Positions 24,720 to 29,051 of a stretch of 64,000 bases of DNA are shown one piece after another. The notes beneath the pieces were generated by a model. The model saw only the letters and a program-made list of their open reading frames with translations, ran no database searches and had not been told where the DNA came from. The position numbers and the translations under genes were made by a program. The DNA is taken from NCBI GenBank assembly GCA_030427505.1, contig JAUICH010000003.1, positions 62,001 to 126,000 of the forward strand, given 5' to 3'. This DNA comes from Verrucomicrobiia bacterium (GTDB lineage Bacteria > Verrucomicrobiota > Verrucomicrobiia > Verrucomicrobiales > DEV007). Position 1 is the stretch's first letter. Each line of letters begins with the position of its first letter.

Positions 24720-26063
24720 TCAACCGCCCTGGGGGCCGTTTCCTTCAATACGATGGGGACCCAGAATCTCGCTGTCTCTGGGCACTTCGCGCAGGGGCTT
24801 GGCTTCGGGGCCGATCCGGTTGTTGAGAATCGTGAATTTTCCAATCTCGTACTTGGTCCACACCCACCAGTCGGGCAGGCCTTTCTCGGGACGGTTCGAA
24901 GCGCCCTCAGCGGTGATGATAGCCTGGACGCCTTCGAGACGATTGTTCCGCGCGATAGTGCCAAACGCTTCATAATAAATCTCTTTCCCGCTGGTCTTGG
25001 CGTTTATAACCATGAAACTGTCCAGCTTGCCATCCACCTCACAATTCTGGGCCAGGATGTCGCGGCCAGAGGCGGCAATAGCGCCCCTTCTATAGCCGCC
25101 TCCAAAGCGGCAGCCATCGACCACATAGTAACGAACGTCACGCCGCTCCCAGGGATCGAGATTTCCGTCTCCGGTGATGTCGAGGGAAAGATCGTCATTC
25201 GTGAACAGCAGGATGGCGTTGCTCCACAGCCGGTCCGCACCCGCGAAGGTGCACTGAATGGCGCCCGAGCCCTGAACCCCGTCGAGGTAATAGGCGTTGG
25301 CGTGATGACCGGAGAATTCGCAGCCCCGGAACCAGATGCCGCGAATGCCCATGATGCCGGTGACCGGCAGGGGCCGGTACCACCGCAGCACTTTCTTTCC
25401 ATTGCCATCCACGGCTCCCTCGTCCCGGTTTTCAGGCTGATGAAAAGTGCAGCCGTCAAAGAGGACCGACCGGCACGCCCCCAGCCGAACGGGACTTTGT
25501 TCGAAGGTGATGTTCTTGAAGTAAATGTTGTGGGTGGGCAGTTCCCTCAGCGCCTTCACGGCGGCGGGATTCTGGTGAAACACCGCCTCGCAGAAGGCTC
25601 CGTAATCGTGATTCAGCGAGCTGCCGACCACGAAATTTTCCGAGCCGCGAATGACGGCTTCGCCCTCGCCAATGAGGTGAATATTCGCCCGGTTCAGGAT
25701 TTCAAAGCCTCCTTCGTAAGTGCCAGCCGCCAGCCGGAGGGTGCCACCGGTAGATGGGAGCGAGTCAATGGCTTCCTGGAGAGAAGGGCCGGAAGGTTGA
25801 AGCGCCACCACGGGTTCGGGAGATTGAATCTCGACGGCGTCACCAGTCCGCGCGGGATTTAGGGGATGCTTTCCCCACCACTCGTCCGCCGTGAGCGAGT
25901 AGTCGATTGGGACGTCGGGTACTCCCTCTGAAACTTCAGCAAGAGCCGTGAAATAGGAAAATAACCAGCTCAGTCCAAAGGCGGTAAGAAAGTAAATAAA
26001 TCTACTTTGGATGACTCTGGAGGAAGAGGGTTCTTCTCGCGGGGCGGACAGGTTGAATACCAT
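24720..26063 (-). CDS. Secreted or anchored right-handed parallel beta-helix protein
   Basis: A protein of about 447 residues with a hydrophobic signal or anchor (SRFIYFLTAFGLSWLFSYFTALA) after a short basic N-terminus; the ATG at MVFNLSAPRE is preferred over one twelve codons upstream. The body is a pectate-lyase-like right-handed beta-helix: SLQEAIDSLPSTGGTLRLAAGTYEG, IHLIGEGEAVIRG, NIYFKNITFEQSPVR, RSVLFDGCTFHQPEN, IWFRGCEFSGHHAN, TFAGADRLWSN, then C-terminal repeats. An EF-hand/dockerin-like loop DITGDGNLDPWER sits between coils (about residue 290) and may bind calcium. A polysaccharide lyase or glycan-binding role is a fair guess, without catalytic proof. Confidence 0.75.
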   Translation of the reverse strand: MVFNLSAPREEPSSSRVIQSRFIYFLTAFGLSWLFSYFTALAEVSEGVPDVPIDYSLTADEWWGKHPLNPARTGDAVEIQSPEPVVALQPSGPSLQEAIDSLPSTGGTLRLAAGTYEGGFEILNRANIHLIGEGEAVIRGSENFVVGSSLNHDYGAFCEAVFHQNPAAVKALRELPTHNIYFKNITFEQSPVRLGACRSVLFDGCTFHQPENRDEGAVDGNGKKVLRWYRPLPVTGIMGIRGIWFRGCEFSGHHANAYYLDGVQGSGAIQCTFAGADRLWSNAILLFTNDDLSLDITGDGNLDPWERRDVRYYVVDGCRFGGGYRRGAIAASGRDILAQNCEVDGKLDSFMVINAKTSGKEIYYEAFGTIARNNRLEGVQAIITAEGASNRPEKGLPDWWVWTKYEIGKFTILNNRIGPEAKPLREVPRDSEILGPHRIEGNGPQGG

Positions 26064-26206
26064 GCCCCCGGGTTTACACAACCAGATTCGCCATGGCAAG
26101 GCTGGCTGAAGCGATTGCCGGCCAGGCTATGGCTGGAAGAAATGTCGCCGATTTTTCTCGGCCCGGCAGGCTTCACCCGCGCCATGCCCAAAGGGCGGAA
26201 GGCGGC

Positions 26207-28561
26207 TCAGCGAGCCTTGAAAGAGTCGATCCAGGCTTCGATCTGGGGGTAATACCTTTGATGCACCCTTAGGATGAGATGTCCGTTTTCGGAATTGTAG
26301 ATCGCGTTGGAATAAGGGGGAAACCGGACGCCGATGTGTTCGAGAACTTCCTTCGCGCTGGACTTGCCGGATTGCTGGCACGCCAAATCAAATGCGCTCT
26401 TGGGCAAGGCGTAAACTCTCGTGTAAATGCCGGCGGCATTGTAGTCTGCCTCACTGAGCGGAGGGCGGGAATTTTCCGCGGTGTTCGCAGATGCCGGAGG
26501 CTGGAGGATCAGCACGGAATTGTCCGAAATCTCAAAGGACAGTCCGGTGACCTCGGTGGCAAAGCCGAAGGCTTTCATCAATGAAACGTTCCGAAAACTG
26601 CAGGTGATTTTTCTCGTCACGCCTTTTTCCACTGACGGGTCGAAGACCACGTTCACGGCACGCTTGTCGGGATCGAGTTCGACCGCCTTCTGTTGAATGA
26701 ACTTGATGGCGTCTTCCAGGGATGACTCGCGGAACTCTAGAAGAGGAATCCGGGTATCCATCAGCCTTTGGAAGAGGTCCACCTTAGCCGCCATAGACTC
26801 CGCGGAGGCGGAGCCGGGGGAAGTGTCCCGTGGGCTGGCGAAAGCCTCCAGCTCTTGTATCTTCTCCAATGACAAGATACGGACCGAGTCTGCTTCGGTC
26901 ACGTAGGCAACGCCCCCGAGTTGCGTGATATAGCGAAGCGCTTCGGCTACGGGTACTTGAGTAAGTTTCAGGGTGATGAGAGCGTCTTGCCGGGGTTCCG
27001 CGGAGGGATCGAGGATAAAATGGATTCCTTTCTTCTCGGGATCCTGTTGCCGGGACTGCTGCTGGAGAAGCACGAGGGCGTCTCTCAGGGGAACCTCCTC
27101 CAGCTTGATCTGGGGAATGACAACGGAAGCCATTTTCCGCCCCAGAGCAGTGCCGGGCAGGGAGCCTGAGGGTTTCTCCCAGCCGTCCGCCAGGGCGGGT
27201 TTTGGCTTCGCCTTGATGACGACCGCGTTTTCTTCGATCTGAAAGATAGCGCCCGCGAGTTGGGTGGCGTAGCGGATGACTTCGGTAACGGGAATCTGGG
27301 ACAGCTTCAGATTGACCGGCGCATCCAGAAGCGACTCAGCGGAAGGATCGTAAACCAGGTTGAATCCTTCTTTTTCGGGATCGAGTTCACGCGCTCTCTG
27401 TTGGATAAATTCAAGCGCGTCTTTCAGCGGAAGATCAGTGAATTCAGCTTCCGGAAGAATGATCCGCTTCAACTTATTCGAAAGACCGCCCTGTTCGGGG
27501 TCGCCGGCGGATGACGCCGGTTCCGAGAATTCAAGTGTGCCCGCAACCACTCCCGAAAGAGTCAGGACACAGGCCAGAGAACGGGCTTTCCAACTGGCCG
27601 GGGGACGAAGCCGGGCGTGATGCCCGACTTTCCGCAGACGCCGGCTGACGGAAGGAATCCGCAGCAGCGCCGTGGCGGGCAGAGGCTGGGGAATGAGCTG
27701 AAGGGCCAAGTTCGCCAAAGCGCTGGAGTAGGCGGTGGCATCGCCGCCACGGCGGGCCGCCTCGGCATCGCTGGCTTCCTCCGCGGAGCGAAGATGCAGG
27801 CCTTCCAGCCACCAGGCCAGGGGATGAAACCAGAAAAGGCAGGTGGTAAACCGGGCGATCAGAATCCAAACCGGATCGCGGTGCGCCAGGTGCGCGGCTT
27901 CATGCCGGAAGACGTGTTCCAGGTGGCCGGAACCCCCGTCTTCTTCCATGGTCTCTAACAAGCAGGCGGGAATGACGAGGTTCGAGTTGGAGAGACTGGG
28001 AGACAACCATGGAGATTCGTTTCCCACCGAGATACGCAAACAGCAAGCGCGGACACCATAGTCACGGCAGATGGTGTCCCAGGCGCCCTGAGCCTGTTGA
28101 GGCGCTGGTTGGGTGTATCTGAGATGGCGGCCTTTCGGTCCAAATTGGCGAAGCCGCCACGCCTCGCGGAGGGAAAAGGCCAAGGCTGTCAGCAACCAGG
28201 CAACGACCAGTGCGGCTACCAGGGATTCCGAAGAACCGGAGGACCGATTTATCTGGCCTGAAACCGTGACCGCCTTTGTCTGAGGATCGATTTCAAACTT
28301 CCGCTCCAGCATCAAATGATCCGGAGCCTGCGTTTCAGCCTCAAACAAGACCTTCAGTGGCATATAAGGCACGAGAATCCGCGGACTGCACACGGCGGCT
28401 ACTAGAAGGATGGGGAGCGTGATGTATGCGACACGCGCGCCGAGCACGCGCCATCGCGGCTCGGCCCGGTGAAGGCAGAGTATCAGTCCGATGGCCATGG
28501 CCATGAAGAGGCTCACTTTGAACAGGGAGGCACCCAGGTGGAGGAAAACGTCCGGGTTCAT
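26207..28561 (-). CDS. BlaR1/MecR1-like M56 metallopeptidase fused to three secretin-N-like repeats
   Basis: A 784-residue protein. The N-terminal part has membrane helices and an M56 zinc-metalloprotease with the HEAAH motif (about residue 220, FRHEAAHLAHRDP) followed by ARFTTCLFWFHPLAWW. BlaR1/MecR1 proteins sense a signal and cleave the BlaI/MecI repressor. Instead of a penicillin-binding sensor domain, the C-terminal 420 residues contain three repeats (about 365, 480 and 604 onward) of the type F-x(4)-L-x-D-A-L-x-F-I-Q-Q ... N-x-V-Y-D-P-S-A-E ... L-S-Q-I-P-V-T-E-V-I-R-Y, resembling the secretin/TonB short N-terminal (STN) domain. It overlaps the repressor gene by four bases. Confidence 0.85.
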   Translation of the reverse strand: MNPDVFLHLGASLFKVSLFMAMAIGLILCLHRAEPRWRVLGARVAYITLPILLVAAVCSPRILVPYMPLKVLFEAETQAPDHLMLERKFEIDPQTKAVTVSGQINRSSGSSESLVAALVVAWLLTALAFSLREAWRLRQFGPKGRHLRYTQPAPQQAQGAWDTICRDYGVRACCLRISVGNESPWLSPSLSNSNLVIPACLLETMEEDGGSGHLEHVFRHEAAHLAHRDPVWILIARFTTCLFWFHPLAWWLEGLHLRSAEEASDAEAARRGGDATAYSSALANLALQLIPQPLPATALLRIPSVSRRLRKVGHHARLRPPASWKARSLACVLTLSGVVAGTLEFSEPASSAGDPEQGGLSNKLKRIILPEAEFTDLPLKDALEFIQQRARELDPEKEGFNLVYDPSAESLLDAPVNLKLSQIPVTEVIRYATQLAGAIFQIEENAVVIKAKPKPALADGWEKPSGSLPGTALGRKMASVVIPQIKLEEVPLRDALVLLQQQSRQQDPEKKGIHFILDPSAEPRQDALITLKLTQVPVAEALRYITQLGGVAYVTEADSVRILSLEKIQELEAFASPRDTSPGSASAESMAAKVDLFQRLMDTRIPLLEFRESSLEDAIKFIQQKAVELDPDKRAVNVVFDPSVEKGVTRKITCSFRNVSLMKAFGFATEVTGLSFEISDNSVLILQPPASANTAENSRPPLSEADYNAAGIYTRVYALPKSAFDLACQQSGKSSAKEVLEHIGVRFPPYSNAIYNSENGHLILRVHQRYYPQIEAWIDSFKAR

Positions 28562-28992
28562 GATTTGTTGGGGTGTTTTTTTTCGTTCTTGGGCTTATCG
28601 GAAGCCCCATAGTGCTGGGCAATCTCGGAAAGCTCCCGGACTTCCTCCGGGGTAAGAGAGTCTTCCTGAAGCAACTGAGCCAGGAGCCCGACCCGGGAGC
28701 CGGAGGAAAACACCTTGGACAGCCCGGCAAGCAGATCGGAAAGCGCATGGATCTTCTGGCGTTTGGGCTGGTAAACGAAGGCTTTTCCACTCTTCCCGCG
28801 TTGGAGTTCGCCGCGTTCCACCAGAACCCGGAGCACTGAGCGCAGGGTGGCGTTTTCAATGGGCCACTCGAAGCGCTCTTCAATTTCCGCCGGTTTGAGA
28901 GGCCGGTCCGCGTTCCAAAGTATCTGCAGGACGTGAAGGTGCGCCCGATTCAAGTGAGGGATGCCGGAATCCTGGGGGTCAGGTGGGCTCAT
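28558..28992 (-). CDS. BlaI/MecI-family transcriptional repressor
   Basis: A 144-residue winged-helix repressor (IPHLNRAHLHVLQILWNADR, EIEERFEWPIENATLRSVLRVLVERGELQRGKSGKAFVYQPK), a typical BlaI/MecI/CopY-type protein, in which the C-terminal helices dimerise and the site is cut by the M56 protease. The ATG at MSPPDPQ is chosen because the upstream extension to 29028 runs through the operator dyad. The gene overlaps the protease by ATGA. Two palindromic sites sit immediately upstream. Regulated targets beyond its own operon are unknown. Confidence 0.9.
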   Translation of the reverse strand: MSPPDPQDSGIPHLNRAHLHVLQILWNADRPLKPAEIEERFEWPIENATLRSVLRVLVERGELQRGKSGKAFVYQPKRQKIHALSDLLAGLSKVFSSGSRVGLLAQLLQEDSLTPEEVRELSEIAQHYGASDKPKNEKKHPNKS

Positions 28993-28995
28993 ATG

Positions 28996-29051
28996 TGTGA
29001 GAAAATCACAGATGGAAAGATGGGGCAAGCCTTTTCTGTGATTTTTTCACA
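28996..29051 (-). promoter_or_regulatory. Paired TGTGA-N5-TCACA operators upstream of the BlaI-like gene
   Basis: Two identical dyads: TGTGA-GAAAA-TCACA (28996-29010) and TGTGA-TTTTT-TCACA (29037-29051; spacers given in plus-strand orientation), 41 bases centre to centre. The near one starts four bases upstream of the repressor's ATG. They are the most obvious candidate binding sites for BlaI-type autorepression. A CRP-type site would have N6 rather than N5 between the half-sites. Confidence 0.6.

Follow-up and report, generated by a model that had tools for sequence, protein, structure and literature searches.

A verrucomicrobial BlaI–BlaR1-type locus with a secretin-derived N0/STN sensor module in place of the penicillin sensor

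The blaI–M56 operon and its operators

We analysed a 64,000-nucleotide stretch of contig JAUICH010000003.1 (hereafter the window) from a Verrucomicrobiia bacterium (GCA_030427505.1). On its minus strand lies an operon of a repressor gene and an M56 protease gene, with the following features in window coordinates:

29037..29051, minus strand: distal operator TGTGAAAAAATCACA, 41 bp upstream of the proximal one (sequence)
28996..29010, minus strand: proximal operator TGTGATTTTCTCACA, 3 bases upstream of the ATG (sequence)
28558..28992, minus strand: BlaI/CopY-type repressor, 144 aa (PF03965, Penicillinase_R, E 2.6e-15)
26207..28561, minus strand: putative M56 (BlaR1/MecR1-type) antirepressor protease with a secretin-derived periplasmic sensor, 784 aa (Pfam and NCBIfam)
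27890..27904, minus strand: HEAAH zinc motif, residues 220-224 (invariant in alignments of relatives)
27524..27580, minus strand: TM4, residues 328-346, preceding the extracytoplasmic sensor (hydropathy; compare MecR1 TM4, 315-338)
27206..27469, minus strand: N0/STN repeat 1, residues 365-452 (repeat HMM; profile match to PilQ N0, 4AR0)
26867..27130, minus strand: N0/STN repeat 2, residues 478-565 (repeat HMM; profile match to PilQ N0, 4AR0)
26498..26761, minus strand: N0/STN repeat 3, residues 601-688 (Pfam STN over cut-off; structure model and Foldseek)
26210..26464, minus strand: N1 (Secretin_N-like) C-terminal domain, residues 700-784 (BLASTP to the PilQ of the same genome; model)
24720-26099, minus strand: secreted right-handed beta-helix-like protein, directly downstream of the M56 gene

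BlaR1/MecR1-type switches serve in penicillin detection by staphylococci. The window locus shares with them the M56 domain, four transmembrane helices, HEXXH with a downstream Glu and a reentrant WF(N/H)P helix, as well as an overlapping BlaI gene and paired operators at its own promoter. The M56 domain (PF05569) spans residues 13-289 at E 6e-17 (62.2 bits against a gathering cut-off of 31). Hydropathy places the transmembrane helices at residues 12-30, 39-57, 113-131 and 328-346, alignments and hydropathy reveal a reentrant segment with an FWFHP motif, and E261, the candidate third zinc ligand, is invariant in the alignments together with HEAAH. In MecR1, the experimentally mapped helices lie at 5-28, 36-58, 110-135 and 315-338, the reentrant segment at 213-243 carries FWFNP, and the zinc ligands lie in HE205LSH and at E245 within E245KVCD (PMC6925264). 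Since the topology matches that of MecR1, the residues after 346 are predicted to be extracytoplasmic, and by the same analogy the zinc site would lie on the cytoplasmic face. Topology, zinc motif and coupled BlaI gene together support the identification of the 784-aa protein as a BlaR1-type antirepressor.

The blaI stop and the M56 start overlap by 4 bp (ATGA), in agreement with the coupling to a BlaI-type repressor claimed in a preliminary description of this DNA. No sigma-70 consensus promoter was found at the operon, and a TTGCCC hexamer between the two operators may serve as the −35-like (TTGAC-like) element of a putative promoter. Given the positions of the operators and of this hexamer, a bound repressor would cover the transcription start. 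BlaI and MecI recognise TACA/TGTA half-sites, whereas the half-site here is TGTGA/TCACA. Exact TGTGA-N5-TCACA sites number three in the 6.4 Mb genome, two at the blaI promoter and one inside a gene; the latter, within a methyltransferase-like coding sequence, was rejected as an operator and ascribed to chance. Allowing one mismatch and an A/T core adds one further site genome-wide (C6:610750). The preliminary description had proposed a genome-wide look at genes carrying such sites; the operators mark no other gene.

An intact tandem operator pair, with a constant spacing of 41 bp, was found only at the locus's own promoter in five of the five genomes searched (this genome and four clade relatives); the four relatives also have one-mismatch sites scattered elsewhere. 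Other lineages keep the layout with other half-sites, namely TGCGAA, TGCTAA, GTGTTAA or TACA/TGTA. Of 103 upstream regions, 12 gave pairs in a strict tandem-operator scan, which misses longer or imperfect palindromes; the expectation was 0.05, and many more pairs were seen by eye.

The locus adjoins a polyamine-type ABC operon, not pilus genes, and its operon, unlike BlaR1/MecR1 systems, lacks a beta-lactamase gene. The downstream beta-helix gene was examined as a possible conserved output of the operon; a search of 74 other family genomes turned up no homolog, and this role was rejected. Among the adjoining genes in the window's list of open reading frames, no ECF sigma factor or TonB transducer gene was recognised.

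The extracytoplasmic sensor

After TM4, Pfam and NCBIfam detect no penicillin-binding or beta-lactamase domain, as the preliminary description had held, and the BlaR1 beta-lactam sensor model NF000326 reaches 15.4 bits against a cut-off of 400. Pfam also detects neither an anti-sigma domain nor the secretin beta-domain (PF00263) in the protein. Our results support a sensor that is instead a secretin-N module of three N0/STN repeats and one N1 domain. The preliminary description had recognised the HEAAH protease and the three repeats correctly, and had missed the N1 domain as a fourth.

The repeats are about 88 residues long each, with starts 113 and 123 residues apart. For repeat 3, Pfam STN (PF07660) exceeds the gathering cut-off (E 5.4e-8, residues 636-686). 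A repeat HMM, itself partly built from these repeats, finds all three with domain E-values of 1e-35 to 1e-39, and a profile from 52 repeats run against all PDB sequences matches PilQ N0 (4AR0) at E 3.7e-7. A first-pass Pfam STN search of the genome, which matched nothing, not even the window repeat, was discarded as insensitive.

For repeat 3 and N1 together, the structure model is secretin-like, with a mean pLDDT of 81 and the N1 part mostly above 80; its best Foldseek matches are periplasmic domains of PilQ, EscC, XcpQ, InvG and GspD, and lower-ranked ones are FecR-like anti-sigma factors and FpvA. The AlphaFold model of the whole sensor from a two-row alignment was poor (mean pLDDT 44.8) and was set aside except for its N1 part. 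Profile, structure and fold searches agree on the STN/secretin-N likeness first suggested from the sequence, with periplasmic domains of PilQ, XcpQ, GspD and EscC as the top matches.

The strongest NCBIfam match of the whole protein is NF042912 (Amuc_1098, the Akkermansia secretin that resembles PilQ), in three stretches at E 2.7e-53, and its score of 181 lies well under the equivalog cut-off of 750. Secretins of the PilQ kind are the gate of type IV pili in the outer membrane. In BLASTP against the PilQ of the same genome (L028), N0 aligns with the repeats and N1 with residues ~700-784; a weak PF03958 match falls in the N1 region of the ortholog L103. By these similarities, the closest kin of the sensor are the Amuc_1098-type (PilQ) secretins of Verrucomicrobia. 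The window protein shares with the NF042912 secretins the N0/STN repeats and N1, but has neither their TPR part nor their secretin beta-domain, and is tethered to an inner-membrane protease. Compared with BlaR1/MecR1, three N0/STN repeats and N1 stand where the class-D-beta-lactamase-like domain would be.

A second comparison is with anti-sigma factors of the FecR/PupR/FoxR type, whose C-terminal STN domain binds the STN domain of a transducer, such STN–STN contacts controlling proteolysis (PMC7186176, PMC11637429). The placement of an STN domain towards the C-terminus was reported as new in 2020 for PupR (PMC7186176). The window protein would have in common with this group an inner-membrane regulator, a C-terminal periplasmic STN and control by proteolysis. 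It differs in pairing an antirepressor protease with BlaI rather than an anti-sigma with an ECF sigma factor, and in having three STN repeats plus N1, and no TonB-dependent transducer gene was recognised next to it.

Relatives, sensor exchange and pilus parts

To analyze the distribution of this architecture, related loci were sought with the repressor as query. The survey of BlaR1 homologs that the preliminary description had proposed turned up at least 31 STN-repeat-bearing M56 proteins in Verrucomicrobiales; the architecture is not a one-off, and the window locus is one of many in the order. M56 proteins that have three repeats and a BlaI gene immediately upstream are encoded at L103 to L107 and L113, and proteins with one or two repeats at many more loci. 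The nearest relative, L103 (the same locus as L116) from an uncultured Verrucomicrobiales bacterium, keeps the M56 domain, three N0, N1 and the BlaI overlap; its repeats 2 and 3 are separated by an extra N1-like domain.

In a quick tree of 110 M56 proteins, made by a short search and weak at its deep forks, the STN label needs at least six changes on well-supported branches (11 as drawn), which points to repeated gain or exchange of the sensor. The supported clade of the window protein comprises, besides itself, L103, four lipocalin-type proteins and one short-tailed protein. In a set of 98 M56 tails, which is rich in repeats as many of the proteins were fetched because of them, 33 match Amuc_1098, 20 STN, nine Secretin and five Amuc_1099. 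Amidase_3 and redoxin are among the envelope-type domains matched by other tails. STN or secretin domains were found in 9 of 65 further M56 proteins that came from an M56 search after removal of those collected earlier.

Two side observations concern these tails. Three of the 98 match N-acetylmuramoyl-L-alanine amidase (Amidase_3), which suggests cell-wall sensing types. In the M56 proteins of L069, L070, L071 and L110, a secretin-domain-like stretch, HMM-detected only in L071, apparently precedes two STN repeats, opposite to the order found in secretins.

The genome under study encodes nine M56 proteins: the window protein with three N0 and N1, two with a secretin beta-domain, one with an Amuc_1099 domain, and the others. 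It also has a complete Amuc_1102-1101-1100-1099-1098 operon, whose Amuc_1098-type secretin is kin to the sensor. The Amuc_1099 domain scores 126 bits (cut-off 50) and matches the genome's own Amuc_1099 in BLASTP (E 2e-28); M56–Amuc_1099 fusions occur in five further genomes. The fusions to PF00263 lie at L015:4482-6299 and L012:5011-7272, and the protein with the Amuc_1099-family periplasmic domain at L011:4957-6885, with like cases at L204-L208. Separately, L026:5809-6771 of this genome encodes a stand-alone protein of 320 aa with a signal peptide-like start, a short TPR-like stretch and two N0/STN repeats; it has no secretin domain and is a possible soluble partner.

Four sister operons (L109:5787-8437, L114:4266-6926, L115:4796-7427 and L119:6986-9642) encode blaI, a secreted two-domain lipocalin-like protein and then an M56 protein with a homologous tail. 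At L115, the M56 tail matches the co-encoded secreted protein in BLASTP (E 3e-9); the secreted protein itself falls in no Pfam family. The sensor of BlaR1 resembles class D beta-lactamases (PMC7593790). Since in the sister operons, too, the sensor resembles an operon product, it is reasonable to suppose that the STN-type sensor may likewise copy the component that it watches.

A proposed switch and its alternatives

We then put forward a model, at a probability of roughly 0.7, in which the locus is an autoregulated BlaI–BlaR1-type switch whose secretin-derived sensor answers to a periplasmic protein partner. The computed domain make-up, MecR1-like topology, zinc motif, tandem operators, gene overlap and PilQ homology are its starting points. 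BlaI would repress its own blaI–M56 operon by binding the two palindromes, which lie around and across the promoter. The M56 protein would be anchored in the inner membrane, its zinc site facing the cytoplasm and its three N0/STN repeats and one N1 the periplasm. There it would bind or lose a partner protein, in the likeliest case a further STN/N-domain protein; candidates are this genome's own PilQ, of Amuc_1098 type, and the partners of that PilQ. The sensor would move against the membrane domain and switch the protease on, and the active protease would cleave BlaI and derepress the operon. The partner-state and sensor-movement steps are modelled on MecR1 and on the STN–STN control of anti-sigma factor proteolysis, and BlaI cleavage, signal dependence and the direction of the switch are what we infer.

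What the switch detects is probably the condition of envelope machinery of the cell itself, rather than an antibiotic. That the pilus secretin is the partner is plausible, and is the most speculative part of the model. Several points stand against the model: the locus lies next to polyamine-type ABC genes and away from pilus genes, the whole-sensor structure model is poor, and the operators mark no second target gene in the genomes searched. Nor does an output gene emerge from L103, whose operon comprises blaI and M56 only, or from the non-conserved beta-helix gene downstream of the window operon.

One alternative is a sensor that serves as a generic scaffold for protein interactions and whose signal, unrelated to secretins, might be a peptide, a secreted protein or stress on the envelope; the STN domains would then be no more than a handy module. 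The range of other M56 tails (CarboxypepD_reg-like, EF-hand, Amidase_3, redoxin and beta-helix) and the mixed sensors within the window protein's own clade (STN in two, lipocalin-like in four, short in one) speak for it. However, Amuc_1098 secretins are specifically the nearest kin of the repeats, and components of the Amuc_1098 pilus operon (Amuc_1099 and the secretin domain) recur in two further M56 types. We rate this reading at somewhat under even odds. It is also tempting to speculate that some verrucomicrobial M56 antirepressors form a set of surveillance switches for the Amuc_1098-1102 pilus, with sensors that copy parts of the machine (N0/N1 or the secretin domain of Amuc_1098, or the Amuc_1099 domain) and read its assembly state by competition between part and copy; we hold this to be rather unlikely.

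The M56 protein could also be the effector itself. As a self-limiting protease of the inner membrane, it would use a secretin-like adaptor and degrade or process an envelope substrate, with BlaI only setting its level. The confinement of intact tandem operators to the own promoter agrees with this, as does the L103 operon, which consists of blaI and M56 alone. But the MecR1-like topology would put the zinc site on the cytoplasmic face, away from envelope substrates, and the four sister operons co-encode a secreted protein; we regard an effector role as unlikely. A functionless chance or misassembled fusion of M56 to a secretin fragment, for which one might cite a closest match of 33-37% identity among genomes of other genera, is refuted by recurrence and has a negligible probability: the architecture and BlaI overlap recur in L103/L116, three-repeat M56 proteins occur in separate genomes at L104-L107 and L113, and the frame is open with intact motifs.

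In the open-licence literature, we found no description of a BlaR1 with STN or secretin domains or of M56 in Verrucomicrobia. To our knowledge, BlaR1 and MecR1 are known almost solely as beta-lactam detectors. The favoured switch model would add a BlaR1-type switch with an exchangeable sensor, assembled from pieces of secretins on several independent occasions. A regulator that carries STN repeats at or close to its C-terminus is a further addition, in the order known from PupR (PMC7186176). The rule that we offer is that the sensor resembles the envelope component that it watches, as the BlaR1 sensor resembles a beta-lactamase. In Akkermansia, the Amuc_1098-1102 operon encodes the host-active protein Amuc_1100. 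If the partner of the sensor is the Amuc_1098-1102 machine, the locus would open a way into the regulation of that machine.
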